Assembly (NCBI RefSeq): GCF_947648125.1
Contig: NZ_CANSMR010000017.1
Span: 113,208 to 177,207 of the forward strand
DNA from: an uncultured Bradyrhizobium sp.
Lineage (GTDB): Bacteria > Pseudomonadota > Alphaproteobacteria > Rhizobiales > Xanthobacteraceae
Direction of reading: 5' to 3'
DNA length: 64,000 bases
In this document: one piece after another, positions 15,878 to 35,261 of the stretch
How the letters are laid out: every line of letters starts with the position of its first letter
How positions within the stretch are numbered: the stretch's first letter is position 1
Translations under genes and position numbers: made by a program
Notes under the pieces: generated by a model
What the model saw: only the letters and a program-made list of their open reading frames with translations
Databases searched by the model: none
What the model was told of the DNA's origin: nothing

Positions 15878-15895
15878 ATGGCGATCCCGGGAAGA
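15878..15895. other. left attachment site (att core repeat)
   Basis: ATGGCGATCCCGGGAAGA matches the tRNA-Arg 3' end at 38472-38489 base for base over 18 bp and diverges directly outside on both sides. This is the displaced tRNA tail left by integration. Confidence 0.85.
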
Positions 15896-15927
15896 AGGCG
15901 ACGATCCTTTCCTGGCAATGGCTTACG

Positions 15928-15990
15928 GCGACTAACGCCGCTAACAGCGCCTCACGTCATTAAAGGGCTTTTTCGGCCTGTGACTAACGG
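15928..15990. promoter_or_regulatory. candidate left integrase arm sites
   Basis: GCGACTAACGC at 15928-15938 and GTGACTAACGG at 15980-15990 match two copies of GTGACTAACGC at the other end of the island (38399-38409 and 38422-38432), all in the same orientation. Their presence only close to both ends suits arm-type binding by the tyrosine integrase. A weaker CACTAACCGCC follows at about 16050. Confidence 0.6.
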
Positions 15991-16026
15991 ACTTGAAGGG
16001 GTTTCTCTGCGCGCGGGATTGAGCAC

Positions 16027-16137
16027 ATGACCGGAAATCCCTTGCCCGCCACTAACCGCCATCCCGCCGATCTCCGCGCGCAGATCGCCGCGCTGAAGGC
16101 CGCCGAGGCCGAGCTGCGCTCTGCACCAATTCGGTAA
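16027..16137 (+). CDS. small ORF, helical, at island left end
   Basis: A 36-codon frame starting at ATG 16027 (MTGNPLPATNRHPADLRAQI, then a charged helix with AALKAAEAELR). It is too short for confident calling. The helix resembles the start of small coiled-coil proteins common in rhizobial phage regions, so it may be a short gene or a truncated one. It lies in the same direction as the replication gene. Confidence 0.35.
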   Translation: MTGNPLPATNRHPADLRAQIAALKAAEAELRSAPIR

Positions 16138-16255
16138 ATCGGGAAGCGATATCTTCCGGTGTGCCGGTGTGATGACTATTTGAGGATTCGAGCGACCGCG
16201 ACGCATCCGGGGACGGGCAAACGCAGGGGTCGCAATCCGCAGATCAGGAATCGAA

Positions 16256-16290
16256 AGGCCCTGCCAGCTTGGATAGGGCCGGCAGGGCCT
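16256..16290 (+). terminator. strong hairpin upstream of the replication operon
   Basis: AGGCCCTGCC (16256-16265) pairs perfectly with GGCAGGGCCT (16281-16290) around a 15-nt loop; the following GATTGATTTG is only weakly T-rich. It could end transcription arriving from the left or shape the leader of the replication transcript. Confidence 0.45.
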
Positions 16291-16332
16291 GATTGATTTG
16301 AGCAACGGCTACCACCCCGTCGCTCGGCACCA

Positions 16333-16351
16333 TCACAGTGAGAGGCTGTGA
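16333..16351 (+). promoter_or_regulatory. hairpin presenting the ribosome-binding site
   Basis: TCACAG and CTGTGA form a 6-bp stem around the loop TGAGAGG, immediately before the ATG at 16353. The AGAGG ribosome-binding sequence sits in the loop. The same loop with a longer stem occurs at 21451-21475, so the motif looks deliberate; it may be bound by a protein to control translation. Confidence 0.5.
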
Positions 16352-16352
16352 C

Positions 16353-17291
16353 ATGTCTGTATCTAAAAATCCGTCTCCCGACATTCAAGCATCCGCCGCC
16401 GCTAAGGGCGACAAATTCACCCGCGATCAGTTTGATTGGCTGCGACAGGTAGCACTCGACAGTGAGCTGCCACCTACGGCCACGCGCGTCGCGATCGCGC
16501 TGACAAAGTACTTCAACCGCGAGCATGACGGCTGGGCCTGGATGTCACAGGCCAAGTTGGCGCTCGATCTCGGCATGCCGGAGCGCACGGTCCGGTTCGC
16601 GCTGTCGGCCTTGATCAAGGCCGGCCACATGATCACCAAACGGCGCGGGCGGATGGAAACGAGCCTGTATCACCTCGCCTTGAAAGACGAGAGTGACCGG
16701 CAACCCATTGCCGATCATGACCGGCAACCCATTGCCACTCACTCCGGAGTGACCGGCAAAAATCAGCAGAGTGACCGGCAAAAACCTGCACGAGTGACCG
16801 GCAACCCATTGCCTACAAACCCTCTGAAAGAACCCTCTGAAGAATCCATTGAAGAAGAGTCAGACTCTCCTCGCCTCGATCTCGGTGAAGAAGGGCGGCG
16901 CGTCGTTCAGGAACAGACTCAGACCCTCGATGCCACCTTTGAGTCGTTCTGGAACCAGTACCCCCGCAAGGTCGACAAGGGCGCCGCCAAGAAGGCCTAT
17001 ACCAGCGTCATCAGGAACAAGCAGGCGACGCCGGCCGAGCTCTTGACCGGCGCCATGCGCTACGCCGCGGAGCGCATCGGGCAAGATCCAAAATACACCA
17101 AGCATGCGACAACCTGGCTGCACGCTGAGAGTTGGGCGAACGAGCCGGCCGCCACGCCGATCGCCGACACCATCGAGGACGGCAACCCGACAGCAGCGCC
17201 GCCACCGAACCGGCCACCATCCGGCAATCCCCACGAAGCCCGGCTCATGGCCCGACTCGCTGCCCTCGCCGCGAAGGGGAGCCAGCAATGA
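16353..17291 (+). CDS. phage replication initiator-like protein (O-like)
   Basis: A 312-residue DNA-binding protein. Residues about 25-95 form a winged helix-turn-helix (VALDSELPPTATRVAIALTK, WMSQAKLALDLGMPERTVRF). Residues 195-260 are the C-terminal block seen in phage and DnaT-like replication proteins: FWNQYPRKVDKGAAKKAY ... KYTKHATTWLHAESWANE. Between them is a hydrophilic linker with repeated DRQPIA and VTG, encoded by the iteron-like DNA repeats. Start: the ATG at 16353 follows AGAGG; a GTG at 16338 is less likely. It overlaps the next gene by ATGA. By analogy with lambda O it would bind iterons within its own gene and recruit the helicase; this role is inferred. Confidence 0.75.
   Translation: MSVSKNPSPDIQASAAAKGDKFTRDQFDWLRQVALDSELPPTATRVAIALTKYFNREHDGWAWMSQAKLALDLGMPERTVRFALSALIKAGHMITKRRGRMETSLYHLALKDESDRQPIADHDRQPIATHSGVTGKNQQSDRQKPARVTGNPLPTNPLKEPSEESIEEESDSPRLDLGEEGRRVVQEQTQTLDATFESFWNQYPRKVDKGAAKKAYTSVIRNKQATPAELLTGAMRYAAERIGQDPKYTKHATTWLHAESWANEPAATPIADTIEDGNPTAAPPPNRPPSGNPHEARLMARLAALAAKGSQQ
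16691..16856 (+). other. candidate replication origin inside the initiator gene
   Basis: Five direct copies of TGACCGGCAA begin at 16694, 16718, 16750, 16772 and 16795 (steps 24, 32, 22 and 23 bp). Three extend to TGACCGGCAACCCATTGCC. Directly after come three tandem 13-mers: AACCCTCTGAAAG (16818), AACCCTCTGAAGA (16831) and ATCCATTGAAGAA (16844), purine-rich and lower in GC than the surroundings. Helical phasing of iterons followed by 13-mers within an initiator gene matches the lambda ori layout. No origin activity is shown by the sequence. Confidence 0.6.
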
Positions 17292-17974
17292 ACCAGATCA
17301 CCGAGACGACGGGCCAGCAGATCGTCACCGCCACCACCGGCAACAAGATCACCTTGCCGATGGTGTTCGCGGCGGCCAAACCGACAATCGAGGCAATCAA
17401 GATGATGTGGACGCCCCTGCAGTGGTGCGCGCAGCACCACGACAGGATCGGCAACGTTGTCGGTGTCGACGTGCTGGACACTCGAAAGGAGGCCTGCGCC
17501 AGAAACCGCGACGCGGCGCGGCAATGGTACGACTATATCCCAGATTGGCCGGTGCTCGATCAGGCCGAGAAGCTGTTCACCGCCGCCGAGAACACCCCGG
17601 CGCCGGCCGACTGGATGCCGATGGCCTTCGACGCCATGCTGATGGCCATGCCGAACGCCAAGAACATCTCCGAGCACACCGTCGCCGCCTACCTCGAAAC
17701 GCTCGACGATCCCGAGACGTGGCAGGGATACGGGCCGGGCTTCTCGGCCGCCGTCGTGGTCCGCTCGATCCGTGAGACCATGCGGGCAAGCACCTACGTG
17801 GCAACCCCGTGCGAGCTGCTGCAGATGTTGCAGAAGCACCGCAAGCTGTTCAGGACCTGGCAATCCGATGTGCAGTGGCTACGCGATGCCCGCGACCGCG
17901 CCGAGGACATCTTGCTGAACCTGGGCGAGATCAAATTCGACATGCCCGACGATGACAGCCTGATCCCGTTCTGA
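17288..17974 (+). CDS. unknown protein coupled to the initiator; possible helicase-loader role
   Basis: A 228-residue soluble protein whose ATG overlaps the stop of the initiator gene (ATGA). There is no Walker motif. The C-terminal half has AAYLETLDDPETWQGYGP, then AVVVRSIRETMRASTYVATP and CELLQMLQKHRKL. This order (short helix pair, then a Y/F-x-P-x-x-E-L segment) is what I recall from phage replication partners such as lambda P-type loaders, and the size is close to that of lambda P. That role is inferred mainly from position. A simple alternative is a phage protein of unknown function. Confidence 0.6.
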   Translation: MNQITETTGQQIVTATTGNKITLPMVFAAAKPTIEAIKMMWTPLQWCAQHHDRIGNVVGVDVLDTRKEACARNRDAARQWYDYIPDWPVLDQAEKLFTAAENTPAPADWMPMAFDAMLMAMPNAKNISEHTVAAYLETLDDPETWQGYGPGFSAAVVVRSIRETMRASTYVATPCELLQMLQKHRKLFRTWQSDVQWLRDARDRAEDILLNLGEIKFDMPDDDSLIPF

Positions 17975-18678
17975 GGAGCGCGCCGCCCCGAGCGGGCATG
18001 ACCAAATGGAGTGCTCCGCTTGAGCAATAATTCATTCCTCGAAACCTGGCGTAGACTGCCCCTGCTCCCGCCGGGTTTCGCAAGCCCCCCTTTGAAGCCT
18101 GTGGAGCAGGCGACCCCGCCAAGCGGCCGCTCGCAAGACGGGGTCGCTGCGTGTCGGGCACCCTCAGAGCCGCCGGCCGCTACAAGCTGATCGAGCTGCG
18201 CGACTGCATCGCGCGCGTGCACATCAGCGGCGGCTGCTCCAGCACGTTGTCGCCGTCACCGACAGCATGCCTGGGTCGGATGACTGGTAGCGCTAGAGAG
18301 CGAACGCGCCGGTCCCACATCATGTCCCAAGGCACGTCGCGTGAGCGCATGACATGAAAATGACGTTGCCGAGGTATTCGTGGGTATGCCGTTCGTCACT
18401 AAAAGGTTGGGCGCCACCTGTGCAGAATCACACGCGTCCGGGAAATTGCCCGCCTCGGAGACGAAACCAGCGCCGCCAGCGATCATACTACGCTGGCCGG
18501 CGACTGGCCTCCGTAGCGCGCCGCCAGAGCGAGTGCGCGGCATCACCAGCATAAACGAAACCGCAATCCACCTCAGGGTCAGGATCGCCCACCGGCCAGC
18601 GCGGTAACGTGAACCTTCACGCCTCCGTAGCGGACCTATCCGTGGAATCCTGCGGAGACCCAAACCGGGAGGTGCAAC
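17975..18678. other. 704-bp stretch without a supported gene
   Basis: Short frames exist on both strands but none has a convincing ribosome-binding site or recognisable product. A plus-strand frame from about 18151 (SGTLRAAGRYKLIELRDCIA) is the least unlikely. There are small hairpins near 18095-18145. A terminase recognition site (cos or pac) could lie in such a region, but I see nothing specific. Confidence 0.4.
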
Positions 18679-19044
18679 ATGCGCAAGCCTAGATCATTTG
18701 TTGCGATGGCGGCGTCTGTGGCTGTGCTGGGATTGATCGCGAGCAATCCGGCACAGGCTGATCGATTCGACGTTTGCATGAGTAATTGTACGAAGAGTCA
18801 GAACCCCGCTCACGCGGACAGCTGTGATCGTGCTTATGGTGCCTTCGCCATCGATGGTGTTAATCTGGACCTCTACTGGCCTTGTGAAGACCAGCTCCGG
18901 GACACTTGCCAACGCACCTGTGCACGTTATCTCGACGATCTCGGGCAGCCAAAGCGCGGCGGCAGTTACGGCAACCCTCGGCATTGGCAGCGGGAGGTGC
19001 TGCCGTCTGATTGGTACAAACCTGGGTGGGGGCCAGGCCGCTAA
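18679..19044 (+). CDS. cysteine-rich secreted protein
   Basis: A 121-residue exported protein with a clean signal peptide (ending SNPAQA-DR) and a strong GGGAGGTG ribosome-binding site. The mature part contains six cysteines: DVCMSNC, ADSC, WPC and DTCQRTC, spaced to make disulfides. The C-terminal tail is rich in W, G and P. No family recognised. It sits between the replication genes and the recombinase and may act in the periplasm. Confidence 0.65.
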   Translation: MRKPRSFVAMAASVAVLGLIASNPAQADRFDVCMSNCTKSQNPAHADSCDRAYGAFAIDGVNLDLYWPCEDQLRDTCQRTCARYLDDLGQPKRGGSYGNPRHWQREVLPSDWYKPGWGPGR

Positions 19045-19119
19045 CCCCCCGGGCCACCGCACACATCCCCATGTCGATTATTTTTCGATGGCCATCGAAG
19101 TGTGGCCGCGCCGCGATCG

Positions 19120-19206
19120 TCAGAGCATAACGCCAAACCACAGCACGAGCGCGAACAGCACCACCAGGGCGGCGGTGATGATCACTTCGCTCGTGGGGAT
19201 CTTCAT
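19120..19206 (-). CDS. 28-residue single-span membrane peptide
   Basis: A minus-strand frame from ATG 19206: MKIPTSEVIITAALVVLFAL followed by VLWFGVML and a stop. It consists almost wholly of one hydrophobic helix. The ribosome-binding site is weak. It resembles in style three other tiny membrane proteins on the same strand at 20451-21126, which raises confidence that it is a real gene. Confidence 0.42.
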   Translation of the reverse strand: MKIPTSEVIITAALVVLFALVLWFGVML

Positions 19207-19296
19207 CGACCCGGCCTTCGCGTAAGGGACGGTGCAGCATATCACGGATGGCGCGGTCGGACTTACCGGGCCGGCGGGCTCGCCTTATGCTCGAAG

Positions 19297-19326
19297 TTGT
19301 AGTATTATCCTGAGATAAAACTACAA
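19297..19326. promoter_or_regulatory. 30-bp palindrome upstream of the serine recombinase
   Basis: TTGTAGTATTATC and GATAAAACTACAA are 13-bp inverted arms with one mismatch, separated by CTGA. The site lies 16 bp upstream of the recombinase ATG in a locally AT-rich patch. It could be a crossover/res subsite for that recombinase, or an operator over its promoter. Confidence 0.55.
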
Positions 19327-19341
19327 ATATTGGTTAAGGCT

Positions 19342-20043
19342 ATGTCAGATCAAGAGAAACGCCAGCGCAAGCCAGCCATCGGTTACACACGGACCAGCTC
19401 GGCGACCAACGCCGGTGAGGACAAAGACTCCGTGATCCGCCAGCGCAAGGCCATCCAGGCTTACGCCAACCGCGCCGGCTATCGCATCGTTGCTTGGCAC
19501 GACGATCCCGCGGTCAAGGGCGCCGACGCGATTGACGCGCGGCCCGGCTTCGCCGCGGCGCTGGAGCAAATCGCCGGCAACGGAGTCCGCACCATCATCG
19601 TCGAGACCGCTAACCGCTTCGCCCGCGATCTCATCGTGCAGGAAACCGGATTCCGGCGCCTGCAGGCGGACGGCATTACTCTGATCGCCGCCGACAAGCC
19701 TGACTCTTTCGTCGATGATACGCCAACCGCGGTGCTGGTTAGGCAAATACTCGGCGCCGTGGCCCAATTCGACAAGGCCATGACGGTGGCGAAGCTGCGC
19801 GGTGCTCGTGAGCGCAAGCGGCGCACCGGTGCCCGCGTGGAGGGGCGGAAGCCCATCACCGAGAGCCACCCAGAGGCCGTTGCGATGGCCCGACAGTTGC
19901 GCGCGCAACAGCCGCGCATGTCACTGCGCGACATCAGCACCGCGCTCTCCGACGCCGGCATCGTCACCAAGCCCGGCAAAGGCAAGAAGCGGCCGGGCGG
20001 ACAGCCCTATAGCGCGAGCGCGGTGCAGGCGATGTTGATCTAG
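19342..20043 (+). CDS. serine recombinase (resolvase/invertase family)
   Basis: A 233-residue recombinase. The catalytic serine is in GYTRTSSATN (about residue 19), followed by the active-site arginine region IIVETANRFARDLIVQETGF and the QFDKAMTVAKLRGARERKRR helix. The C-terminal DNA-binding part reads PEAVAMARQLRAQ ... MSLRDISTALSDAGIVTK. An ATG at 19342 is chosen; an upstream TTG at 19330 is in frame. Likely roles are resolution or inversion of a segment of the island; its target may be the adjacent palindrome. Confidence 0.85.
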   Translation: MSDQEKRQRKPAIGYTRTSSATNAGEDKDSVIRQRKAIQAYANRAGYRIVAWHDDPAVKGADAIDARPGFAAALEQIAGNGVRTIIVETANRFARDLIVQETGFRRLQADGITLIAADKPDSFVDDTPTAVLVRQILGAVAQFDKAMTVAKLRGARERKRRTGARVEGRKPITESHPEAVAMARQLRAQQPRMSLRDISTALSDAGIVTKPGKGKKRPGGQPYSASAVQAMLI

Positions 20044-20057
20044 GTCGCTCGCTCGAC

Positions 20058-20237
20058 CTACGCGAAGCAAACGTTGCCCACGCAAGCTTGCTGCCACAGG
20101 ATCGGAAGGGATCCCTCGCATAGGGTCATATGCCAGCCCATGGGCAGGACGTAATCCTTGCCTCCCACAATCTGCTCGAGTTCATCCATCGAAACTTCGC
20201 GCGGCTTTGCTTCCGCTCCGGTTTTGAGATTCGCCAC
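20058..20237 (-). CDS. double-glycine-leader peptide (bacteriocin-like)
   Basis: A 59-residue peptide started by GTG at 20237, 6 nt after a strong AAGGAGA. Residues 14-26 (REVSMDELEQIVG, then G) form a typical double-glycine leader with the E-L/I-GG pattern cut by C39 peptidase transporters. The 33-residue core begins KDYVLPMGWHMTLCEG and contains three cysteines, ending in NVCFA. Leader-type peptides of this kind include class II bacteriocins and other exported peptides. It converges on the recombinase gene with a 14-bp gap. No processing ABC transporter or modifying enzyme is in the window, so it would need one elsewhere. Confidence 0.65.
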   Translation of the reverse strand: MANLKTGAEAKPREVSMDELEQIVGGKDYVLPMGWHMTLCEGSLPILWQQACVGNVCFA

Positions 20238-20311
20238 AATAGGTCTCCTTTGGTTCTGCACAGCGATGGGTTCGAGCAGACTATCCCCCTGCGTTCACCC
20301 ATTACGGTGAC

Positions 20312-20391
20312 CCTGGTCACGCTCGATCGCCGAGCGCTATGCGTATGAGGTGGGCGAGGCGACGATGCACCGCGCGCTGAAGGCCGCCTGA
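20312..20391 (+). pseudogene. C-terminal remnant of a serine recombinase
   Basis: An open stretch after a stop encodes RSIAERYAYEVGEATMHRAL then KAA and a stop, matching the helix-turn-helix tail of resolvases (AxxYxVGEATxxRAL). No start or catalytic domain precedes it. This looks like the end of a lost resolvase gene. Confidence 0.45.
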
Positions 20392-20416
20392 TTACATCCT
20401 CACCGTCAACCACCAC

Positions 20417-20437
20417 CGGCCCGCCATGTGCGGGCCG
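20417..20437. terminator. hairpin between small genes
   Basis: CGGCCCGC-CATGT-GCGGGCCG is an 8-bp stem followed by TTTCGTT on the plus strand. It lies just past the end of the tiny membrane-protein gene ending at 20451 and could terminate transcription from either side. Confidence 0.5.
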
Positions 20438-20450
20438 TTTCGTTCGCCAT

Positions 20451-20603
20451 TTAGCGCCACGATCCATCCGGCCCGAGCGGCAAATCTGGATGGTCGTCGC
20501 GGTTGTTCTTGTCGGGCTTCACCTTGAAACCCTGTCGAAACGCAAACCAAATGAAGCTGACCAACCCGACCACGCAAATCGGCGCGAGAATCCAGTCCGG
20601 CAA
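20451..20603 (-). CDS. 50-residue membrane protein
   Basis: Start TTG 20603 after GGAGG (9-nt spacing): MPDWILAPICVVGLVSFIWF then a basic/acidic cytoplasmic tail (RQGFKVKPDKNNRDDHPDLP). One transmembrane helix. Second of four tiny membrane proteins on this strand. No family recognised. Confidence 0.5.
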   Translation of the reverse strand: MPDWILAPICVVGLVSFIWFAFRQGFKVKPDKNNRDDHPDLPLGPDGSWR

Positions 20604-20713
20604 AATCGTGATCCTCCAATGGGGCCACCCCGATAGTTGGTCACCGCGACCTTGGGCCGAGTTCAACACAGATACCGGCACCCACTGCAGCCGTGGTCCT
20701 AGAGCGCGTCCGA

Positions 20714-20851
20714 TCAGGACTGCGCCGCGGCGTCGTGATCGGCGTCGTGATCGCCAACGTGGCGCCTGATGGCGTTACGATCCGTGGCGATGAACATTGC
20801 GGCAATGGCCATCGAGACGACGGCCGCGGCGGCAAGCGCGAGATCGATCAT
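20714..20851 (-). CDS. 45-residue membrane protein
   Basis: ATG 20851 follows GGAGGG: MIDLALAAAAVVSMAIAAMF then IATDRNAIRRHVGDHDADHD and a short tail. One transmembrane helix with a histidine/aspartate-rich tail. Same strand as its neighbours with gaps of 110-165 bp. Function unknown. Confidence 0.55.
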   Translation of the reverse strand: MIDLALAAAAVVSMAIAAMFIATDRNAIRRHVGDHDADHDAAAQS

Positions 20852-21015
20852 TTGACGGCCCTCCGGGGAGTCCAGCCCCTATCGCGATATTGGCGACGGT
20901 CATCCCCGTTCGGGCAGTGTCTTTCGTCACTCAGGACGCGCGCCAGCCTCGCTCATGAGTTGGCGCGATGTCTGCCCCGACCGGACGACAAGCCGCTGTA
21001 GAGGTCTCTGGGTGG

Positions 21016-21126
21016 TTATCCGATCAGTAGCCACGCGATGCTGGCAAGAAGCGCAATGAACGACACCGCCACAGCGCTGGCTAGGGCAATCTCCACGCCG
21101 TCGATCCGAGCAGAATACAGCCGCAT
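21016..21126 (-). CDS. 36-residue membrane protein
   Basis: ATG 21126 follows GGGAGGG at good spacing: MRLYSARIDGVEIALASAVA then VSFIALLASIAWLLIG. One transmembrane helix at the C-terminus. The strong ribosome-binding site supports it as a real gene. Function unknown; holin-like or toxin-like roles are possible but unsupported. Confidence 0.58.
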   Translation of the reverse strand: MRLYSARIDGVEIALASAVAVSFIALLASIAWLLIG

Positions 21127-21361
21127 AGAAATCACCCTCCCAACGATAAGGGACCGACTGCTGCAACGGACCGGAAGTGTCCTAGTTCCTCGCAGCGGGC
21201 CGTCCATCGCGCCGCGCGATCCCGGCCGATGGGTCGGCACCGGCCGGACGGAAGGCCTCTCAGCCGCCACGGCTGGCGATCCTTGAGGCCATGCGGAACC
21301 TATGGGAGGGAACCTCCGGTTTCGCCATTCTGGTAAAAACACAAGTTCCATCAAAGGCTTA

Positions 21362-21389
21362 TTGACTTTGATGCGGCCCGGTATATTTT
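21362..21389 (+). promoter_or_regulatory. candidate promoter for terminase operon
   Basis: TTGACT and TATTTT are spaced by 16 bp in an AT-rich patch within otherwise GC-rich DNA. The next genes on this strand are those at 21515-24275. Confidence 0.4.
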
Positions 21390-21450
21390 AGAACGTATCG
21401 CGAACGACTCTTCGCATCGCCCCCCATCAACGCCGGCTCAACATGGGCGT

Positions 21451-21475
21451 GCCGCACAGTGAGAGTCTGTGCGGC
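21451..21475 (+). promoter_or_regulatory. conserved hairpin with TGAGAG loop, second copy
   Basis: GCCGCACAG-TGAGAGT-CTGTGCGGC: a perfect 9-bp stem with a 7-nt loop. It shares CACAGTGAGAG and CTGTG with the hairpin right before the replication initiator (16333-16351). Two copies in front of two operons of one island suggest a common RNA- or DNA-level control. Confidence 0.5.
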
Positions 21476-21514
21476 GCCTCAGTGTGGCCGTGTGCCCGCG
21501 CAGCCGAGGCTATC

Positions 21515-21904
21515 ATGCCCGCACCGCTTGGATCACGACTGCAGCCGCCTATCGGCACACGGGCGCATGAGCGAGCCAGCCGCAATCGGGACCGCGCTAT
21601 CACCGTCGCACTTCGCCGCGCTGTGGCCGGTAACGCCGTCGCGGTGCTGGCTGTGAAGGCGTTGCGCCGCTGGCTGAAGCGCGCCGACGTGACGCTCGAT
21701 CTCGCTGTGATCGAGGGAGTCGTGACGCTTGCCCTGCACCGGTCTCGGCATGTCGACAACGCCCTGCTCGCTCGGCTGGAACAGCTTGTCGGGCGCCTCG
21801 ATCTCCACGCTGAGGCTGCTCGGCTGCAGATCAGGCCGGACGATCTCGCCGAGGTCCGCATGCTGGCCCGCGCCCTCGCCGGACAGCTGTTCACTGCTGC
21901 CTGA
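21515..21904 (+). CDS. small protein upstream of terminase genes
   Basis: A 129-residue basic helical protein; ATG 21515 after GAGG. Central region VTLDLAVIEGVVTLALHRSR, then ARLEQLVGRLDLHAEAARLQ: alternating amphipathic helices. No family recognised. An in-frame ATG at 21443 would translate through the hairpin and is less likely. It precedes the terminase pair by 12 bp and probably belongs to the same transcript. Confidence 0.5.
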   Translation: MPAPLGSRLQPPIGTRAHERASRNRDRAITVALRRAVAGNAVAVLAVKALRRWLKRADVTLDLAVIEGVVTLALHRSRHVDNALLARLEQLVGRLDLHAEAARLQIRPDDLAEVRMLARALAGQLFTAA

Positions 21905-21916
21905 AGGGAACCGATT

Positions 21917-22267
21917 ATGTCGGACATCACCACGCCGAAACTCGCCCGCGGCTGGAAGCGCCATCATGAGTTGAAGGCCGCCGACCGCGCAGCAAAGGCC
22001 GAGATCGAGGCCGGTTTGCTCATCGGGCTCGGCCGCACGCCGACGATGGCTGATCGGCTCGCATGCGAACAAATCGCCGCTCTTACGATCCTGGCCCGCG
22101 TGCTGGAACGGCGCGGCCGACTGGCGGCTGCTGGCAAAGTCAGAGACCAGATTGTCAGGGCGCAGCGCACCAACGGACTGAAGCCGGCTCCGATCGAGAC
22201 GGCAAAGCCCGCTCCCGGTCAGGCGTTGCAGGACATCTTCGACAAGATCGCGAGTGAACGCGCATGA
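21917..22267 (+). CDS. probable terminase small-subunit-like protein
   Basis: A 116-residue helical protein translated from an ATG after AAGGGAA. It overlaps the terminase large-subunit start by ATGA. The N-terminus (ARGWKRHHELKAADRAAKAE) and the middle (ADRLACEQIAALTILARVLE) are charged helices. The tight coupling to terL is the only reason to suggest a small terminase role; I recognise no HTH with confidence. Confidence 0.55.
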   Translation: MSDITTPKLARGWKRHHELKAADRAAKAEIEAGLLIGLGRTPTMADRLACEQIAALTILARVLERRGRLAAAGKVRDQIVRAQRTNGLKPAPIETAKPAPGQALQDIFDKIASERA

Positions 22268-24006
22268 GCAAGGCGCCGACGATCATCGAGGCATTCAACA
22301 GCCCGGCGCTATTCGGCCGCTACTTCGCCGGGCCAAGCTGGGATTGCTGGCGCGCCATCCTGCACGGTGCCTTCGCCCTGCCGATGTCAGCGGCCGAGGC
22401 CGAGCTATTCCGCGACGTCACCGGCCGCGAACCGCCGGCCAAACGTGTCCGCGAACTAGACGTTGTGGCTGGCCGACGCAGCGGCAAGGACAGCGTAGCA
22501 TCATTCATCGGCGCCTATGTCGCTGCGACGTTCCAACCGAACGGAAGGACGCGCCCCGGTGAACGCCCGGTGGTGCTGCTTCTTGGCGCCGATCGATCGC
22601 AGGCGCGCGGCCTCCTCAACTACGTGAAGGGATACTTTACCGAGGTGCCGGCGCTCGCCGCGCTGGTACAACGCGAGACGCAGGACGGCCTCGAATTGAC
22701 TACTGGCGTCGACATCATCGTCGCAACCTCCGACTTCAGGCTGGTGCGCGGCCGCACGGTACTACTCGCCATTTTTAACGAGGTCTCCTTTTGGATGCAG
22801 GAGGGCTCGGCATCGCCCGACGTCGAGACGTTCCGCGCCGTCATGCCGGCAATGGCGACACTCGGCGACCAGGCCATGTTGATCATGATCTCCTCGGCCC
22901 ATCGCCGCAGCGGGTTGCTCTATTCCAGATGGGAAAAGTTCTACGGCGTCGACAATCCGGATACCCTGGTCGTGCACACCAAGACCAGCCAGCTAAATCC
23001 GACGATCTCGCTCTCGATCATCGAGGCCGCAATGGCCGACGATCCGCAAAGCGCCGCTGCGGAATACAATTCTGTCTGGCGCGATGACCTGGCCGGGTTC
23101 TGTTCCAGAGACGATGTGCTGGCGTGCGTGGATCAAGGCGTCACCGTCCGACCACCACAGGCCAGCGTCCGCTATGTCGGGTTTCTGGATGCTTCGTCAG
23201 GCAAGGCCGACTCGACAACGCTTGGGGTAGCATCGCGTGATGGTGAGAGCGGCATCCTGCACTGCGCTCTCGAGATCCCGAGTCCTCACGATCCAATCGT
23301 AGCCCTCTCGACGATCGCGGCCACACTCAAGTCATACGGCTGCAGCGACGTCTGGGGCGACAAGTACGCCATCGGCTTCACCGAGGCCGAGCTGCGCCGT
23401 CACGGCATCAATCTGAGGCACTCCCCTAAGACGCGCTCGGATTTGTACCGCGAACTACTGCCCATGATCCGTTCGCGTCGGGTCCGAATGCTCGACATAG
23501 ACCGCGCCGTCGTACAGTTCGCTGCGCTCGAACGTCGCGCGCTTCCTGGTGGTGGCGAGCGGATTGACCATCCTGCGCATGGTGACGCCAAGGACGATTT
23601 GAGCAACGCCATCGCGGGCGCGTTAGTGATGGCGACCGCCGAGGAAGGCAGCTGCCACGGCTGGATGCAATACATCGACAATGAAATGCGGAAGCACAGC
23701 GAGGCCGTCCGCGCAGTCCAGCATACCGATGAGCCGGAATTCGGCACGATACGGCCGGGACAGCGCAGCGATCTCGTCCGAGTCAGGCTGCCTGACGGCA
23801 TGCAACCGGTGACAGTCTTTGGCGCCAGCGGATCCCAGTACACCGCCACACCGGAACAGGGCGGTTGGGCGTTTTGGATGTTGCCGGATGACGCGCACGA
23901 CCTTCTGTCGGCGGTCTATGGCCCGCATAGCCAGTCGTGGCGGGCCACCAACCAAGAGCTAGCAGAATCCTTGCGGCGCACGAAACGCGCCGCAGCATTT
24001 GAGTAA
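22264..24006 (+). CDS. phage terminase large subunit
   Basis: A 580-residue packaging motor. N-terminal ATPase: a P-loop variant AGRRSGKD (residues 69-76), a Walker B-like VLLAIFNEVSFW with N-E in place of D-E, and the coupling motif MISSAHRRSGLLY. C-terminal RNase-H-like nuclease: FLDASSGKADST, DVWGDKYAIGF and the terminal HGDAKDDLSNAIAGAL supply the metal-binding aspartates. The two ATPase deviations (D for S/T after GK, N-E for D-E) are notable but within what some phage terminases show. No portal or capsid gene follows. In satellites such a terminase redirects packaging of helper capsids; that is inferred. Confidence 0.8.
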   Translation: MSKAPTIIEAFNSPALFGRYFAGPSWDCWRAILHGAFALPMSAAEAELFRDVTGREPPAKRVRELDVVAGRRSGKDSVASFIGAYVAATFQPNGRTRPGERPVVLLLGADRSQARGLLNYVKGYFTEVPALAALVQRETQDGLELTTGVDIIVATSDFRLVRGRTVLLAIFNEVSFWMQEGSASPDVETFRAVMPAMATLGDQAMLIMISSAHRRSGLLYSRWEKFYGVDNPDTLVVHTKTSQLNPTISLSIIEAAMADDPQSAAAEYNSVWRDDLAGFCSRDDVLACVDQGVTVRPPQASVRYVGFLDASSGKADSTTLGVASRDGESGILHCALEIPSPHDPIVALSTIAATLKSYGCSDVWGDKYAIGFTEAELRRHGINLRHSPKTRSDLYRELLPMIRSRRVRMLDIDRAVVQFAALERRALPGGGERIDHPAHGDAKDDLSNAIAGALVMATAEEGSCHGWMQYIDNEMRKHSEAVRAVQHTDEPEFGTIRPGQRSDLVRVRLPDGMQPVTVFGASGSQYTATPEQGGWAFWMLPDDAHDLLSAVYGPHSQSWRATNQELAESLRRTKRAAAFE

Positions 24007-24017
24007 AGGAGAGCAAT

Positions 24018-24275
24018 ATGACAACGGACATCGATGAATATCTGATCTTGGGCAATGGCGAATTTTGTTTGCGGAGTGCGGTGAGCGCCGCGCTACAGCG
24101 AGCGTACGACGACGCGATTCGATCCGGACCGGACGCCGTACTTAAGCGCGTTCGTGCGCAGATTCGCAGCGTCGCGCTGGGCAACACAAAAATAGTGTCT
24201 GACGCCGAATTGCGCGATAAGGCTGCGGAAATCGAGGCAGCTCGCACTGGTCGATCGCGTAGAGCCGGCGGGTGA
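24018..24275 (+). CDS. small protein downstream of terminase
   Basis: An 85-residue hydrophilic protein with a very good AAGGAGAG site, 12 bp after the terminase stop. Sequence MTTDIDEYLILGNGEFCLRS, then a helical, basic C-terminus. No family recognised. Its position suggests a packaging accessory. Confidence 0.6.
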   Translation: MTTDIDEYLILGNGEFCLRSAVSAALQRAYDDAIRSGPDAVLKRVRAQIRSVALGNTKIVSDAELRDKAAEIEAARTGRSRRAGG

Positions 24276-24371
24276 TCTCAACGCTACGGCTCTCGATGTT
24301 GAGTTCCGGCACAGATTTCGTTCGATCGACGAAGCTACCGCATCGCGTCGGACCTTGCTACCGCGCCGTGA

Positions 24372-26180
24372 TCAGTTGATGCCGAGCTGCGGCGCGATTT
24401 CCCGCGCCAAAAATTCAGATCCAGCCTTAGTAAGGTGGACAATATCCCTCGCTGTTAGCGATTCGCCAATACGAGTGAGGCAATTATCCTTCTGACACAT
24501 CGCATCTCTCGCTGAAACGTACTGGACGCCCAGCGCCGAGGCGACCCCGCGCATATTCGTATCGTCTTTGCCACGGTTGACGAACTCGGAGGTACGCTCA
24601 GGGATGACTTTCTCATTTCGCCTGTAGTAGGTTGCGGCGGCGTTGGGGAGACCTCCGCGCCAAACAGGTGCCGGCCCTACAATTACGATGCGAGCAACGC
24701 CAGCCGCGCGAAGGGCGTCGATGGTCGGCTTTGTAGTTGCGGCACTATCGTTCGCGTCCCATATGGCGTGCAGAACCACGACGTCAGGCTTTATGTCTGT
24801 TATGCGACGCACGATTTCGGCATTCTTCTCGAGGCAATAATGACTTGCCGAGTGAGCCGCAACCAATATCGGCGGACACGAGCTCACGGAGAGTTGTGCG
24901 AGACCAAATTCGTGACTCTCTTGCAGCTTCCTAAATCCGGGGATGAGGGCGGAAGCGGTCGAATCTCCCCAGATTGCGAGTAGTGGCCGCTTAGTTTCCG
25001 AACAACCTTCGAAGTCTCCTTGTTCGCCATCAACCAGCATGCATTGATGCAACCGCCAGCCGTCGAAGTCGGCCGGAGCGTTGATCATGGCTTGAAGTGG
25101 CGCAGGGAGGTCGGGTACCCTAACGAAGGCCGCGGATAATCCAAACGCTCCGACGACCGCCATCGCGATCCCAAGCTGCCATGCTTTGGCTTGGCGCCGC
25201 ATTGGCCGCTCTATCGCAAAATAGGTTAGTACGGCCAGCGCGGCCGCCAGCGCGACGGCGACGAGCCCAAGAGTGTCGTTCAGAGGCCGGAAAAGATAGA
25301 TCTGGAGGAAGACGAGAACCGGCCAATGCCAGAGATACAGCGAGTAGCTGATCAGCCCAACGCCAATGAGCGGCTTGAGCGAAAGGATGCGATTTACGAA
25401 GGCCCCTTCGGACATGATCAGCAAGGACGAGCCAGCGACCGGGAGCGCCGCCGCCCAACCGGGAAATGGCGTCGTTGCGTTGAAGAGGAAAAATGATGCC
25501 TCTATCGCTATGATACCGGCGAGTGCGGCCGTCTCCCTTATCGCCCTCGGCTGCTGGGGAAAAAAGGCAAGTAGTGCGCCGGCCATTAGTTCCCAGGCGC
25601 GTGTGAAGGGCAGGAAGAAAGTCGCGGCTGGATGATCTCCAACCAGGGCAATGTTCAGAACGAACGAAGAGACCAGACCAACAGCCGCAGCAATTGGCCT
25701 CCGACGGTGAGGTAAGACCCACATAATCAGCGGCCACACAAGATAGAATTGCTCTTCAATGCCCAACGACCAAAGGTGCAAGAGCGGTTTGAGATGCGCA
25801 TCGACGTCGAAGTAATTGACCTCGGACAGTAACATCAAGTTCGCGACGAAAAGCGCGCTCGCTACCGCGTTCTTCCCAAGCGAATGGAGTTCGTCGAGAA
25901 GGAGTAGGCGCAGGCCAACAAACACTGTCGCGGCCAAGACGACAATCAGGGCTGGGAATATTCGCCTGACGCGCCTTTGGTAGAATGTGACCAGGTTGAA
26001 GGTTTTGGCTTGCAGATCGAACGCAACTATCCCAGTGATGAGGTACCCAGAAATAACGAAAAAGATGTCCACGCCGACGAATCCGCCAGGCATGAGTTCA
26101 GGGAACGCGTGGAATAGAACAACTGACGAAACTGCGACGGCTCTCAATCCGTCGATATCGGGTCTGTAAGCCACGCTCAT
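24372..26180 (-). CDS. O-acyltransferase, OafA/YrhL type with SGNH domain
   Basis: A 602-residue membrane enzyme that probably O-acetylates a surface polysaccharide. Residues 1-360 form the acyltransferase-3 domain (YRPDIDGLRAVAVSSVVLFH, FFVISGYLITGIV, WSLGIEEQFYLVWP) with about ten spans. The C-terminal 230 residues are a periplasmic SGNH hydrolase-like domain: AIWGDSTASALIPGF holds the nucleophile and IVHLTKAGSEFLA the terminal histidine. It is the first of the AT-richer cargo genes, convergent with the terminase block. Phage-borne acetylases of this class change host O-antigen. Confidence 0.88.
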   Translation of the reverse strand: MSVAYRPDIDGLRAVAVSSVVLFHAFPELMPGGFVGVDIFFVISGYLITGIVAFDLQAKTFNLVTFYQRRVRRIFPALIVVLAATVFVGLRLLLLDELHSLGKNAVASALFVANLMLLSEVNYFDVDAHLKPLLHLWSLGIEEQFYLVWPLIMWVLPHRRRPIAAAVGLVSSFVLNIALVGDHPAATFFLPFTRAWELMAGALLAFFPQQPRAIRETAALAGIIAIEASFFLFNATTPFPGWAAALPVAGSSLLIMSEGAFVNRILSLKPLIGVGLISYSLYLWHWPVLVFLQIYLFRPLNDTLGLVAVALAAALAVLTYFAIERPMRRQAKAWQLGIAMAVVGAFGLSAAFVRVPDLPAPLQAMINAPADFDGWRLHQCMLVDGEQGDFEGCSETKRPLLAIWGDSTASALIPGFRKLQESHEFGLAQLSVSSCPPILVAAHSASHYCLEKNAEIVRRITDIKPDVVVLHAIWDANDSAATTKPTIDALRAAGVARIVIVGPAPVWRGGLPNAAATYYRRNEKVIPERTSEFVNRGKDDTNMRGVASALGVQYVSARDAMCQKDNCLTRIGESLTARDIVHLTKAGSEFLAREIAPQLGIN

Positions 26181-26297
26181 GGCGGGACCCTATATCACGA
26201 CCATGAGATGAATACACAAACTAGTAGAGCCACAGCTCGAGGGTCTTGGTGTTCACCCAAAGACTTGCACCGCGCCTACCCGGTGCTTGTCTCTTTT

Positions 26298-27617
26298 CTA
26301 TCCGGATTGAAGACTTTCAGGGAGCCTCGATGCTGTTCCATCCTCCGGCGTAAGACGGATAGGATTCGGCGTGTGCTGTTGTATCGCGGCAGCTGCAAAG
26401 CCAAGCGCAATTAGCAACATGCTGTCTCTGCTCACGCGCCCATAGACGGCCGACATTAGCGTCTCAAAGATTAGGAAACAGTACGCAAATCTAGCGACTG
26501 GAAGCGTACGGGCCAGTGCGAAAGCTTGCGGTCTAAGTCCCAATGCTACCAGAGCAATTAACGCAAGGCCGGCAGGCCAACCGAGCTCTATGAGAGCCTG
26601 TAAAAATGAATTATGTACGGGGTAGCCCGGCAGACAACTCCTCGATTGGAAGCCATCGAAGCCAATGCCGGTGATGCCAGCGGATGGGAGCAAGGTGATT
26701 GCTTCTTCCAGAAGACGTTGTCGAATTTCGACTGAGTTACTCGTGCTAATCTCTGGACAACCCGGGCGTGGTCGCGGTGCGACGTTTGGTGCTCCAGGAG
26801 TATAGAGAGGGAGGGTTGGGTCCGAGTCCGGCGGCTCAAATGCCTTGCCTAGGTCGAGACCGAAGGTTTTCGCAGTTTGGCCAAAATAGACAGCTGTTGT
26901 TGAAGAGCGCCCTAACGCTCCAGCAAGCATTGCGATCATCGAAACTAGAATGACAAATCCCGTCGGGAGGCGCTGTTTGCGCGGCCCGATAAAAAAAACC
27001 GCAGTGAGGGCCGCCAACATTGCCAGCAATGCGAATCTGACCTGGCTGGCTGTGAACACCATCGTGGGGAGAGCAGTAGCGGCGGCGATCCAAATGGCTT
27101 TGCGGAGTGTCAGGTTTTGGCTCGTCAGGAATATCAGCAGAACGCTAAGCGTTGTCGCAAATTGGGTTGCTGCTGAATCGAACAAACCAAATACCATCGG
27201 CTTTCCGTGCCGAGAGGACCACTGCTCGACAAGCGCGACAAGAGTAACGATCGTGCCGATTGATACGACCACGATCAGAACAACTATCAGGACGCTGAAC
27301 TTTACGTTCGACATCAGCCGGGCTGCTGGATAGCCCAACAGCGTTAGGACCAGAAGCGCAATTTCCTTGCGATCGGAGCCAAGCCCGTGGGCAGCAAATG
27401 ACAGCGCAATGAATGTCAAAAGGATGGCGAAACCCGCATCATTTGCATTCGGCGAGAAGCGTTGCCAGGGGCCGGTGAGGATCAACGCTGCTGTGGTCGT
27501 CGAGAGAAGGGCGGCTGTCGTCATCGCGCCAGATCCCAAAAGACCATGAGCCAGTACGAAGATTGACCCGGCAGAGAGCAACAGCCCCAGCCAGAACGAA
27601 CGGTCAAGTATAATCAA
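26298..27617 (-). CDS. O-antigen polymerase/ligase family membrane protein (first)
   Basis: A 439-residue polytopic protein with about ten spans and the Wzy/WaaL-type periplasmic loop: GITGIGFDGFQSRSCLPGYP then VHNSFLQALIELGWPAGLAL, with the characteristic histidine-asparagine. The TTG start at 27617 is preceded by GGGAG at 6 nt; the frame stays open to 27674. Lies downstream of, and on the same strand as, nothing but the acyltransferase, with a 117-bp gap. Either chain polymerase or lipid A-core ligase; sequence alone does not decide. Confidence 0.8.
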   Translation of the reverse strand: MIILDRSFWLGLLLSAGSIFVLAHGLLGSGAMTTAALLSTTTAALILTGPWQRFSPNANDAGFAILLTFIALSFAAHGLGSDRKEIALLVLTLLGYPAARLMSNVKFSVLIVVLIVVVSIGTIVTLVALVEQWSSRHGKPMVFGLFDSAATQFATTLSVLLIFLTSQNLTLRKAIWIAAATALPTMVFTASQVRFALLAMLAALTAVFFIGPRKQRLPTGFVILVSMIAMLAGALGRSSTTAVYFGQTAKTFGLDLGKAFEPPDSDPTLPLYTPGAPNVAPRPRPGCPEISTSNSVEIRQRLLEEAITLLPSAGITGIGFDGFQSRSCLPGYPVHNSFLQALIELGWPAGLALIALVALGLRPQAFALARTLPVARFAYCFLIFETLMSAVYGRVSRDSMLLIALGFAAAAIQQHTPNPIRLTPEDGTASRLPESLQSG

Positions 27618-27912
27618 ATTCGTCTCCCACTTCGGATAATGGGGTCTATTCGAAGAGCAACGGAGGGGTGCCAAAACTTAAGCGGGCATGCAAGTTCCAT
27701 CCACCGAGTCTCTTGATAGGTCACTGAAAAACTCTAAGAATTTGCCAGAACACCTCAAAAGCTTCTGCTACTAGGTCTTTGGAAGTCTAGCCGGGCCATC
27801 CTGGTCATCTGACGATCCACGCTTCGCCGAACTCTGATTATTCGTAACAGGGATCAATGCAATTGGGAAAATGAGTCTTTAGACTTAGGAGTGGTTCAGC
27901 TTTGTTCCGCAG

Positions 27913-29295
27913 GTGGCGGATGACCGCCTGCACAAGGTTACCTCGCGTGTTAAAGGCAGGGCGGTGTTGGGAGGCATCTTGAATTTGGCTCTTTCGAAAA
28001 GCGGATTTTCGCTCGATCGGTTTGCGCGGATCTATCGCGTCATGACAGACTCGAAACCATGGCGCGCTGCCCTCGACTACTGTCCGATGTTGGTTGCCGT
28101 CGCGATGCCTTGGTCAACTACGGCTGTCCTATTGATTTGGGTCCTGTGGCTCTTTGCGATCTTTCCGAGACTTGATCGGTCCTTTGCAGATGCACTTCGG
28201 CATCCGGTGTCGATGTCAGCACTGGCGATGGTTGGCGTCGCCATTCTTGGCGTTTTCTGGGCGGACGGACCATGGTGGCCGAGGATCGCCGCGATCGGAC
28301 CAACGATAAAGTTGCTATTTTTGCCGCTTCTATTTTACCATTTCCAGCGATCCGAACGAGCTAACTGGGTTTTCATCGGCTTTGCTGCGTCGTGTACTGT
28401 ACTGCTAGCTTACTCGTACGTGGTCTATGTATACCCAACGTGGCGCTTTACTTCAGCACATGGGTTTGACACCACTGGGGTGCCGGTTCGGAACGCTATC
28501 GATCAGAATCAGGAGTTTGCGCTCTGCGCCTTTGGTCTCGCTGCCTCCACTATTGGAATGTTTCACCAACGTCGGTACGTCGCCGCTCTAACACTTGTTG
28601 GCTTGGCTGCATCGTTCCTCGCTAATATCGCGTTCGTCGCGTTCGCGAGAACGTCACTGCTCTACTGCGTTGTCTTGTCTCTACTGTTTGCGTGGAAGTT
28701 CTTCTCTCGCCGGACGGCGACAATTGTTCTGATGCTTCTGGCGATCTCGGCCTCTGCGGTTTGGGCGACGTCCGCGTATTTGAGGGAACGCGTCGAGCAC
28801 ATTGCCCTCGAGTATCAACAGTACCGCGATACGAACCGCCCAACATCTGCTGGTCAGCGATTGCAGTACTGGTCGAGTTCGGTTGAATGGATCCGCCAGG
28901 CTCCATTGATCGGGCACGGAACCGGATCAACAAAGCGTCTTTTCAATGAGGCAGCCGCCGGGAAAGAGGGGGCATGGGCTCAACAAATCGGTAATCCACA
29001 TAACCAAGTGCTCTACATCGCGATCGAATGGGGGAGCCTCGGCTGTATCATCCTCTTCGGGATGTGGCTTTGCCACTATCAGTTCTTTCGTGCGGATGGA
29101 TTGACGGCGTGGATCGGCACAATCGTTGTTGTACAGAACGTACTGAGTTCGATGCTCAATTCGCATCTGTTCGATTTTGCAGAAGGTTGGATTTACGTCG
29201 CCGGCGTTGGTGTTGCCGCTGGCTCAGTCTCAAGACGGGAGACACCGCAGAAGGACCTCCTGCCCGCGCCATCTCGATCAGCGACGCAGCAGTAA
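27913..29295 (+). CDS. O-antigen polymerase/ligase family membrane protein (second)
   Basis: A polytopic protein of up to 460 residues. The signature loop is APLIGHGTGSTKRLF ... IGNPHNQVLYIAIEWGSLGC, with the HNQ of WaaL-like ligases. The start is uncertain: GTG 27913 lacks a good site; a TTG at about 27984 after GGGAGG or ATG 28042 are alternatives. It is divergent from the first family member across a 295-bp AT-rich gap. The presence of two different members argues for a polymerase plus ligase, or two competing polymerases. Confidence 0.8.
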   Translation: MADDRLHKVTSRVKGRAVLGGILNLALSKSGFSLDRFARIYRVMTDSKPWRAALDYCPMLVAVAMPWSTTAVLLIWVLWLFAIFPRLDRSFADALRHPVSMSALAMVGVAILGVFWADGPWWPRIAAIGPTIKLLFLPLLFYHFQRSERANWVFIGFAASCTVLLAYSYVVYVYPTWRFTSAHGFDTTGVPVRNAIDQNQEFALCAFGLAASTIGMFHQRRYVAALTLVGLAASFLANIAFVAFARTSLLYCVVLSLLFAWKFFSRRTATIVLMLLAISASAVWATSAYLRERVEHIALEYQQYRDTNRPTSAGQRLQYWSSSVEWIRQAPLIGHGTGSTKRLFNEAAAGKEGAWAQQIGNPHNQVLYIAIEWGSLGCIILFGMWLCHYQFFRADGLTAWIGTIVVVQNVLSSMLNSHLFDFAEGWIYVAGVGVAAGSVSRRETPQKDLLPAPSRSATQQ

Positions 29296-29309
29296 GCCTC
29301 TCCCCAAGA

Positions 29310-29681
29310 TCATTTGAGATGATATTTTCTGCCGTTTGTGTTCGGGTCCGTATTGTCGCTTGTGGAGAACATCAAAGCTGGGCCACGATAATTCCAAGCG
29401 TCTCTGAGAAGTGCGAAGCGGCCCGCGCCCTTGTCGATGATCTCCTGTTCGACACTATTCGCCGGCCCGAGAAGCTTGTCATCTTCATATAGTCGCGCAG
29501 CATTAAGCTCGCCGTCGATGAATTTGACGGGGACGAGGTACGCATGTCCCTGGTAAGAGTGAAAGTTACCACGGAGCAAGCCTTTGTCGATCGGGCTCGG
29601 AGGAAGCAGGTAAAGGAATGCGCTCGATGCCAAAGCAAAAAGAGTCGATCCGATCACGACACGCGTATTAGCAGACATCAT
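29310..29681 (-). CDS. membrane-anchored small periplasmic protein
   Basis: A 123-residue protein: an N-terminal hydrophobic anchor (SANTRVVIGSTLFALASSAF) and a soluble domain with RLYEDDKLLGPANSVEQEI and LMFSTSDNTDPNTNGRKYHL. From memory, the SDNTDPxTNGRxY ending also occurs at the C-termini of some polysaccharide membrane enzymes, which suits its place beside the ligase genes. Its ATG overlaps the upstream stop (TAATG), so it is translationally coupled to the 61-residue protein before it. Confidence 0.6.
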   Translation of the reverse strand: MMSANTRVVIGSTLFALASSAFLYLLPPSPIDKGLLRGNFHSYQGHAYLVPVKFIDGELNAARLYEDDKLLGPANSVEQEIIDKGAGRFALLRDAWNYRGPALMFSTSDNTDPNTNGRKYHLK

Positions 29682-29866
29682 TAAACGATATTCTCTTCGG
29701 ATGGTTGTTTGCCGACCGGTTCTACGCGCGAACTCAACCCATAGAGTAGATAGGAATCAGTCAGGCCTTGCTCGCGCCCGTCACGATAGCCGATCCGATA
29801 GGATATGCCCCCGCACAAGGCGAGTATTAGCACGATCCCCGAAGCGAGTAGGAATCCAGTTAGCAT
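29681..29866 (-). CDS. 61-residue membrane protein
   Basis: One transmembrane helix (GFLLASGIVLILALCGGISY) followed by RIGYRDGREQGLTDSYLLYG and a polar tail. First gene of a two-gene minus-strand operon with the 123-residue protein; the two probably work together at the membrane. No family recognised. Confidence 0.6.
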   Translation of the reverse strand: MLTGFLLASGIVLILALCGGISYRIGYRDGREQGLTDSYLLYGLSSRVEPVGKQPSEENIV

Positions 29867-30091
29867 CGTGTCACGCGAGTTGTTGGTGACGGTTCAGTTC
29901 GCCGACTTATATAGCGGTTTAAGGGATCAATCTATATCCCACTTCATGATGGGCACGGCGCGGCGGTATCGCCTACAGGTCCCGGCGCGGGATTCGGCCG
30001 CGATATCGAGCGGACCAGGAGCGCCCGCCGAGTGCTCGCGGCTCTTGAGAGAGCGTCTGTCGTGCTAAGAGACCAACCAATGGAAAAATCA

Positions 30092-30120
30092 AAGGCCGCC
30101 TTCGGGCGGCCTTTTCGTTT
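30092..30120. terminator. rho-independent terminator
   Basis: AAGGCCGCC-TTCG-GGCGGCCTT is a 9-bp stem with TTCGTTT on the plus side and, read on the other strand, GATTTTT. It can work in both directions and separates the polysaccharide cargo from the right part of the island. Confidence 0.75.
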
Positions 30121-30147
30121 GCGAAGGCTGAAATGACCTGGCGCGGA

Positions 30148-30468: not shown

Positions 30469-30568
30469 TCACCGCCCGCGGCTCGCAGGCCCAAGGCGTG
30501 CCATCCCTTACTGATTGCGGCGCCGCGGAGGCGCCGTACCCTATTGCATCAGCACCATCTGTGGCCTG

Positions 30569-30784: not shown

Positions 30785-30992
30785 GCGCACAGCCTCGCTC
30801 ACCCGCGCGAGCGAGCGCCGGGCGGTTCAATTGGTCCGATTTCGGAATAACATCATTGGACCACTGAGTTGCCCGACGGCGCAAGTGATTTCTTCAAGGC
30901 TGGACTTTGGCGAACTTGCCACGCCTTCAGGCACGAAATCCTATCTTCAAGCCGTCGCTGTGTTGGAGTAAGTTGGTCCGGTCGGGGTGCCT

Positions 30993-32585: not shown

Positions 32586-32631
32586 GCGGGCGTAATTCTT
32601 GGTGAGAGTGGTAATCGTGAAGACCGGCCTG

Positions 32632-35228: not shown

Positions 35229-35261
35229 GACGCCGACAGCACCATCACCATCATCGACAAG

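Follow-up and report, generated by a model that had tools for sequence, protein, structure and literature searches.

A putative lambda-type replication origin inside the initiator gene of a Bradyrhizobium chromosomal island

In phage lambda the origin of replication (ori-lambda) lies within gene O, where iterons in the middle of the gene are followed by an easily melted region, and the same holds for gene 18 of P22 and gene 18 of phage L. According to the iteron features of the lambda record, the iterons start at steps of 20, 24 and 23 bp, and the coding sequence that bears them overlaps the following one by 4 bp; we take these two coding sequences to be O and P. In plasmid RK2 the origin is located outside the initiator gene, and the initiator is of the Rep_3 type. 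RK2 oriV has 13-mers in an unwinding region beside its iterons, and TrfA binds one strand of four 13-mers with the consensus TAAACnTTnTTTT, which provides a precedent for repeats that are read as a single strand (PMC4081077). The Firmicute plasmid pSK41 carries its Rep boxes centrally in the rep gene, and RepA_N initiators of this kind combine a winged-helix N-terminus, a central linker encoded by the Rep boxes and origin, and a C-terminal host-interaction domain. The hybrid initiator of pPR9, also from a Firmicute plasmid, has the same build: a segment of approximately 500 bp comprising the N-terminus and the ori was replaced, the new N-terminus being a pfam13730 HTH, and the mini-replicon replicates (both plasmids: PMC5703833). 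Gram-negative PICIs are chromosomal islands with their own initiator, iterons and an AT-rich region, in which the ori is located directly 3′ of the initiator gene and two sets of iterons surround the AT-rich region (PMC6092414). For three mycobacterial phages with RepA, Miko, Rachaly and Jeeves, no repeats are reported from the regions that the authors examined (PMC7157519).

Here we describe a locus in 64 kb of Bradyrhizobium DNA (the window) that is best read, from its sequence, as a lambda-type intragenic origin, a kind already known (Table 1). As in lambda, P22 and phage L, iterons and then easily melted DNA lie within the initiator gene, as the original prediction had claimed, and the iteron-bearing gene shares with its lambda counterpart the 4-bp overlap with the next coding sequence. 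The iterons start at steps of 24, 32, 22 and 23 bp. In contrast to lambda, the iteron sequences are unrelated and the origin is located on a chromosomal island. The locus resembles RK2 oriV in its 13-mers beside iterons, and the initiators of pSK41 and pPR9 in its three-part plan, although RepA_N was absent from the Pfam result for the window initiator at E 0.01. It resembles the PICIs in being an island with its own initiator, but a single iteron set was found, inside the gene, rather than two sets 3′ of it. As to lambda O itself, a comparison by hhalign was not significant (probability 0.8, E 0.066), and Phage_rep_O (PF04492), which matches lambda O at 5.7e-36, gave no match to the window protein at E 0.01. 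The best explanation of the whole, which we hold at a probability of roughly 0.87, places the island's replication origin at 16694-16861, within the initiator gene as in lambda gene O.

Table 1. Coordinates of the putative origin, its gene and the surrounding island (positions in the window)
Feature	Coordinates	Strand	Remarks
Iteron 1, TGACCGGCAACCCATTGCC	16694..16712	+	reads SDRQ
Iteron 2	16718..16736	+	reads HDRQ
Iteron 3	16750..16768	+	reads VTGK
Iteron 4	16772..16790	+	reads SDRQ
Iteron 5	16795..16813	+	reads VTGN
Presumed DNA unwinding element	16818..16861	+	two good and one weak 13-mer
Initiator gene	16353..17291	+	ATG picked by eye; ORF opens at GTG 16338
HTH_36-like winged helix	16464..16628	+	Pfam match under curated cutoff; predicted structure
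Helical C-terminal domain	16887..17144	+	pLDDT >90, residues 181-260
Next gene	17288..17974	+	overlaps initiator stop by 4 bp (ATGA); also after initiator in G104
Upstream flank common to G104	16192..16236	.	95.6% over 45 bp, outside exchanged segment
Mobile island, ~22.6 kb	15878..38489	.	in tRNA-Arg(CCT); terminal 18-bp direct repeats
Left att repeat ATGGCGATCCCGGGAAGA	15878..15895	.	one of two 18-bp repeats
Right att repeat	38472..38489	.	overlies tRNA-Arg 3′ end
tRNA-Arg(CCT), attachment site	38473..38549	-	
Tyrosine integrase adjoining tRNA	37236..38402	+	PHROG 1, E 6e-15; Pfam marginally under cutoff

The 10-mer TGACCGGCAA occurs in five exact copies on the + strand, each opening one of the iterons of Table 1, and nowhere else on either strand of the whole window. 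Five copies are more than in any of 20 synonymous-codon shuffles of the window gene (mean 2.3, maximum 3). The predicted count of five direct repeats mostly 22-24 bp apart was correct for three of the four steps, the remaining one being 32 bp. Iterons 1, 2 and 5 extend to TGACCGGCAACCCATTGCC, with the imperfect dyad GGCAA-ccca-TTGCC, which is degenerate in iterons 3 and 4. DnaA boxes, allowing one mismatch, number 22 in the window against 29 expected, with none inside 16338-17291. The iterons were also placed correctly, in the linker-coding part of a winged-helix initiator gene, a linker predicted to be disordered; this position suits an alternative raised with the original prediction, in which the repeats serve a repetitive protein linker and the DNA repeat is a by-product. 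Because a single DNA word is here read in two frames, as DRQ or as VTG, the repeat is kept as DNA and not as protein, which refutes that alternative for the window gene.

Of the three tandem 13-mers proposed straight after the iterons, two are good copies (16818-16830 and 16831-16843, identical at 11 of 13 positions), while the third (16843-16855) begins 12 bp on and shares 8/13 and 10/13 positions with the other two, so that “three tandem” becomes two good and one weak. No 40-mer of the initiator gene is less stable than 16822-16861, and approximately 0.5% of the 40-mers of the window are equally unstable; the AT content at the unwinding region is only about 50%. The iterons could instead form an autoregulatory operator or an incompatibility site, with the true origin elsewhere on the island. 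Operator and origin are inseparable by sequence alone, and many of the 50 Foldseek matches listed for the predicted initiator structure are repressors, e.g., of the ArsR, PerR and CodY types. However, the sites lie approximately 340 bp inside the gene, beside its least stable DNA, their layout matches phage and plasmid origins already described, and extrachromosomal replicons show the same pattern (see below), so an operator in place of an origin appears very unlikely.

The initiator protein matches PHROG 270, “replication initiation protein”, over residues 30-282 and across both domains (E 3.3e-33); weaker matches to O-like PHROGs, including 391, 678 and 345, are shared with lambda O. For HTH_36 (PF13730) it scores 22 bits against a curated cutoff of 25; among its relatives, L002 (31.4) and the N-terminus of L003 (35.5) pass and L004 (24.4) fails. 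In the predicted structure, the winged helix and the helical C-terminal domain are confident, and a disordered linker (block pLDDT 46-67) separates them at about residues 121-180. Foldseek matched winged helices, with no match for the initiator at E 0.001 or better; matches at E 0.012-0.022 included 4pql, 4pt7 and 5kbj, presumably RepA_N-type initiators. One named chromosomal relative was present among the relatives found, in a Bradyrhizobium MAG (53% over 77 residues; L010). The next gene was found in two of 146 genomes of the genus, the window's own (G000, 8.6 Mb) and G104. It has no Pfam match above cutoff, no PHROG or NCBIfam match and no viral relative, nor does it resemble any known helicase loader in these three collections. 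No sigma-70-like promoter was found in 15850-18100. The leader upstream of the initiator gene (16185-16345) is foldable (z -2.4), with 5 of 200 shuffles equally good; this leader, of which 45 bp are conserved in G104, might control initiator expression.

The initiator gene starts approximately 470 bp in from the left end of the island. In the relative G004 the site is empty, and the joined flanks of the island align unbroken with it (92% over 370 bp). Besides the integrase, the island carries two serine recombinases, one resolvase-like and one large with a Recombinase domain (19330-20043 and 30987-32585). The cargo at 24372-29295 includes an acyltransferase-like gene, with an NCBIfam match under its cutoff, and two membrane proteins that by eye resemble O-antigen polymerases or ligases and have no family match. 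The protein of 33276-34295 (- strand) had no match in Pfam, NCBIfam or PADLOC; it begins with FIVGAGAS, a motif which we take to recall SIR2-like proteins. A gene resembling terminase large subunits is located at 22264-24006 (PHROG 9, E 3.9e-7), a hint in the sequence that the island may descend from a phage or a satellite.

This gene is the sole virion-type match among the island proteins searched (Pfam, PHROG), as would suit a decayed, prophage-derived island whose replication module is dead and whose origin is a relic. The initiator frame is nevertheless open, the five 10-mers are exact and the att repeats match over all 18 bp, and we consider a relic unlikely, though less so than an operator. 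In the preferred reading of an active origin, the N-terminal winged helix would bind the five iterons, and the resulting complex would melt the adjoining 13-mer stretch at 16818-16861. The replicative helicase would then be recruited by the C-terminal domain, aided by the overlapping gene downstream or by host proteins, and the circle excised by the integrase would start its replication at 16694-16861.

Homologous initiator genes were gathered from genomes of relatives, viral contigs and phage records. The first set, to which the best 80 of 411 relatives contributed, comprised 106 genes, including lambda O, in 70 clusters at 50% identity. The second set comprised 60 further clusters from the best 80 of 464 relatives. 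The query was an alignment built on four proteins of the first set with another C-terminal motif in common, so that the second set represents new genes and not an unrelated family. Proteins shorter than 200 aa, exact duplicates, sequences with N and L122 (no hit) were left out of the counts; two second-set clusters similar to the first set, those of L143 and L199, were dropped as well. For each cluster, exact repeats of at least 9 bp at a given lag were compared with synonymous-codon shuffles.

Lag 22 was present in 23 of the 70 first-set clusters (null 0.7) and lag 23 in 18 (0.8), followed by lag 24 in 15 (3.25), lag 44 in 14 (0.7) and lag 45 in 11 (2.15). The 60 second-set clusters had lag 22 in 18 (0.7), lag 23 in 11 (0.7) and lag 44 in 8 (0.3), and also lag 12 in 14 (2.2) and lag 11 in 11 (0.6). 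Among 122 control ORFs, each the longest stop-to-stop ORF of its locus apart from the initiator, trimmed to 999 bases and not a curated gene, lags 22, 23 and 44 occurred in 0, 1 and 0, respectively. Some support for a protein linker comes from L095, L096 and L120, in which the steps are only or mostly in-frame steps of 24 bp, and from the enrichment of lag 24. Lags 22 and 23 are the most enriched, however, at approximately 16- to 33-fold above synonymous shuffles over both sets, and together with the two-frame reading in the window gene this leaves a linker function as the reason for the repeats with hardly any probability.

Of the 70 first-set clusters, 41 yielded called arrays, in 42 genes altogether (L001 and L002 belonging to one cluster), as did 29 of the 60 second-set clusters; no confident array was found in the other 29 and 31, some of which have another kind of N-terminus. 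The last step is 22 or 23 bp in 37/42 and 20/29 called arrays, but these were preselected for a last step of 20-25 bp, and the lag analysis is therefore the unbiased evidence. In 38/42 and 24/29 arrays the copies are not all read in one frame, and the repeated words differ between most first-set clusters. This comparison of homologues, proposed with the original prediction, supported it: the repeats are kept at the DNA level although their sequence, their frame and the residues of the linker vary between relatives. The refuting pattern named there, the same domains without a DNA repeat in the linker, was encountered in part, in the N-terminal relatives L099 and L110. Of the 38 genes listed with N-terminal similarity, the window's included, six were checked for looser pairs, of which L099 and L110 had none in the linker, L094, L101 and L104 had one iteron-like pair each (lags 33, 45 and 33, respectively) and L018 had pairs at 22 and 23. 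In a related viral contig (L011:1468-1512), GGGGCTTCGAAG-type repeats recur every 11 bp in all three frames of the initiator, with 1 of 20 shuffles as good.

Two relatives are reciprocal chimeras with respect to the window gene. The DNA of G109 (L002) can be aligned with window positions 16350-16852 (68%); its N-terminal domain is 68% identical and its iterons are of the same type (TGACCGGAA/TGACCGGCA, steps 35, 24, 22 and 23), while its C-terminal part has no match to the window initiator. In G104 (L003), the N-terminal domain is only 27% identical over 102 residues, without a DNA match, and the iterons differ, AACCCTGTCA being present in five exact copies at steps of 25, 35, 23 and 20, which occupy three frames. 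Its match to the window resumes at 16848, with 70% identity in DNA and 60% over 86 residues of the C-terminal domain, and continues into the next gene (64% DNA identity in the longest piece). Both junctions, at 16852 in L002 and 16848 in L003, fall inside the 13-mers. The DNA-binding domain and the iterons thus travel together and separately from the C-terminal domain, and at the level of sequence these chimeras show a putative specificity cassette that is swapped as a unit, with junctions in the presumed unwinding element. Such co-segregation is predicted if the initiator binds its own iterons. As a global correlation, coevolution of iterons and initiators is weak, with a mean best 12-mer iteron identity of 7.44 for 484 N-terminus-related pairs against 7.16 for 370 pairs related only in the C-terminus and 7.21 for 917 unrelated pairs; at least 10/12 identity was reached by 5.8%, 1.4% and 1.5% of these pairs, respectively. 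The cassette argument therefore rests on the chimeras. In G104 the N- and C-terminal halves of the initiator are in different frames (L003:630-1236), with a switch near the unwinding region by an A run, for which a programmed frameshift, a sequencing error or a broken gene are candidates.

Beyond the last iteron, further features recur among the relatives. In four 15-bp bins from +15 to +74, counted from the last iteron start, the AT content is 0.48-0.58 compared to 0.42-0.49 in shuffles. For the word counts, lambda and L067 (later judged spurious), both among the 42 first-set arrays, were excluded. Between +12 and +95, AACC occurs 65 times in 40 first-set genes (null 38.9, maximum 49; opposite strand 8) and 54 times in 29 second-set genes (null 28.1, maximum 36; opposite strand 5); the distance from one copy to the next is 10-13 bp in 28/34 and 25/34 cases, respectively. 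The longer AACC(A/G)TCA is found 22 times in 13 of the 29 second-set genes (null 1.6, maximum 4; none on the other strand), with 0.2 expected from its frequency elsewhere in these genes and frame counts of 3, 13 and 6; in the first set it occurs only 6 times, in 3 of 40 genes (null 0.9, maximum 2). We settled on AACC(A/G)TCA as the exact form once both sets had been inspected, whereas the test of plain AACC on the first set preceded the retrieval of the second. The loose class AACCN(T/C)C, the only one that the window's AACCCTCTGAAAG fits, numbers 30 in 15/29 genes (null 9.1, maximum 13) and 23 in 13/40 (null 9.5, maximum 14). Word counts over whole genes gave a faint unwinding motif, GAACCATC, with 8 occurrences (null 1.8, maximum 6), the motif being clear only in the region past the last iteron.

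Among 18 named phage and plasmid initiator genes, ten exceed all 20 shuffles. Six of these also have a 20-25-bp step, namely those of the Sulfitobacter and Actinoalloteichus plasmids, MooMoo, Vendetta, EBPR2 and lambda; the other four are Che8, Alderaan, P12026 and Prairie. Brujita, PSonyx, Zirinka, Butters, Fulbright, Azospirillum phage Cd, Gsput1 and Asapag do not exceed all shuffles, so that the pattern is common but not universal. A 46-kb Sulfitobacter plasmid has a like arrangement (steps 24, 25, 22 and 22) with a DnaB-like helicase gene adjacent, as does Actinoalloteichus pGBA129-24a (steps 24, 36, 22 and 22), with genes for an ATP-binding protein and a replicative helicase downstream. 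Several actinophages have tandem GGAACAGG-type repeats instead; such repeats, or GGAACAG-type ones, were observed at or near the unwinding position in Che8, Brujita, MooMoo, Zirinka, Butters, Fulbright, Alderaan and P12026 (L227, L228, L130, L232, L233, L234, L229 and L230).

We tentatively suggest, at somewhat less than even odds, that winged-helix initiators of phages, islands and plasmids have in common an origin code of two parts, which persists when the iteron sequence changes. Its first part would be last iterons 22 or 23 bp apart irrespective of their sequence, and its second part tandem 10-13-mers of the AACC(A/G)TCA type on one strand, across different C-terminal domains and frames. 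The latter would be read as single-stranded DNA by some factor that all these systems possess, perhaps a shared part of the initiator or a component of the host helicase or primase. The usual 22/23-bp final step is possibly new, and so, possibly, is the one-strand AACC(A/G)TCA repeat in the unwinding region; both went unstated in the literature searched, which is weak evidence of novelty as most subscription papers were outside its scope.

With this locus, a previously unannotated island gains a specific and testable candidate origin, and mixed-frame repeats 22/23 bp apart offer a handle in the search for origins in related initiator genes. Since the DNA-binding domain and the iterons move as a cassette in nature, initiator specificity may be readable from genomes. 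If AACC(A/G)TCA is indeed a shared code, the reader of the melted strand at lambda-type origins would become testable with short oligonucleotides.
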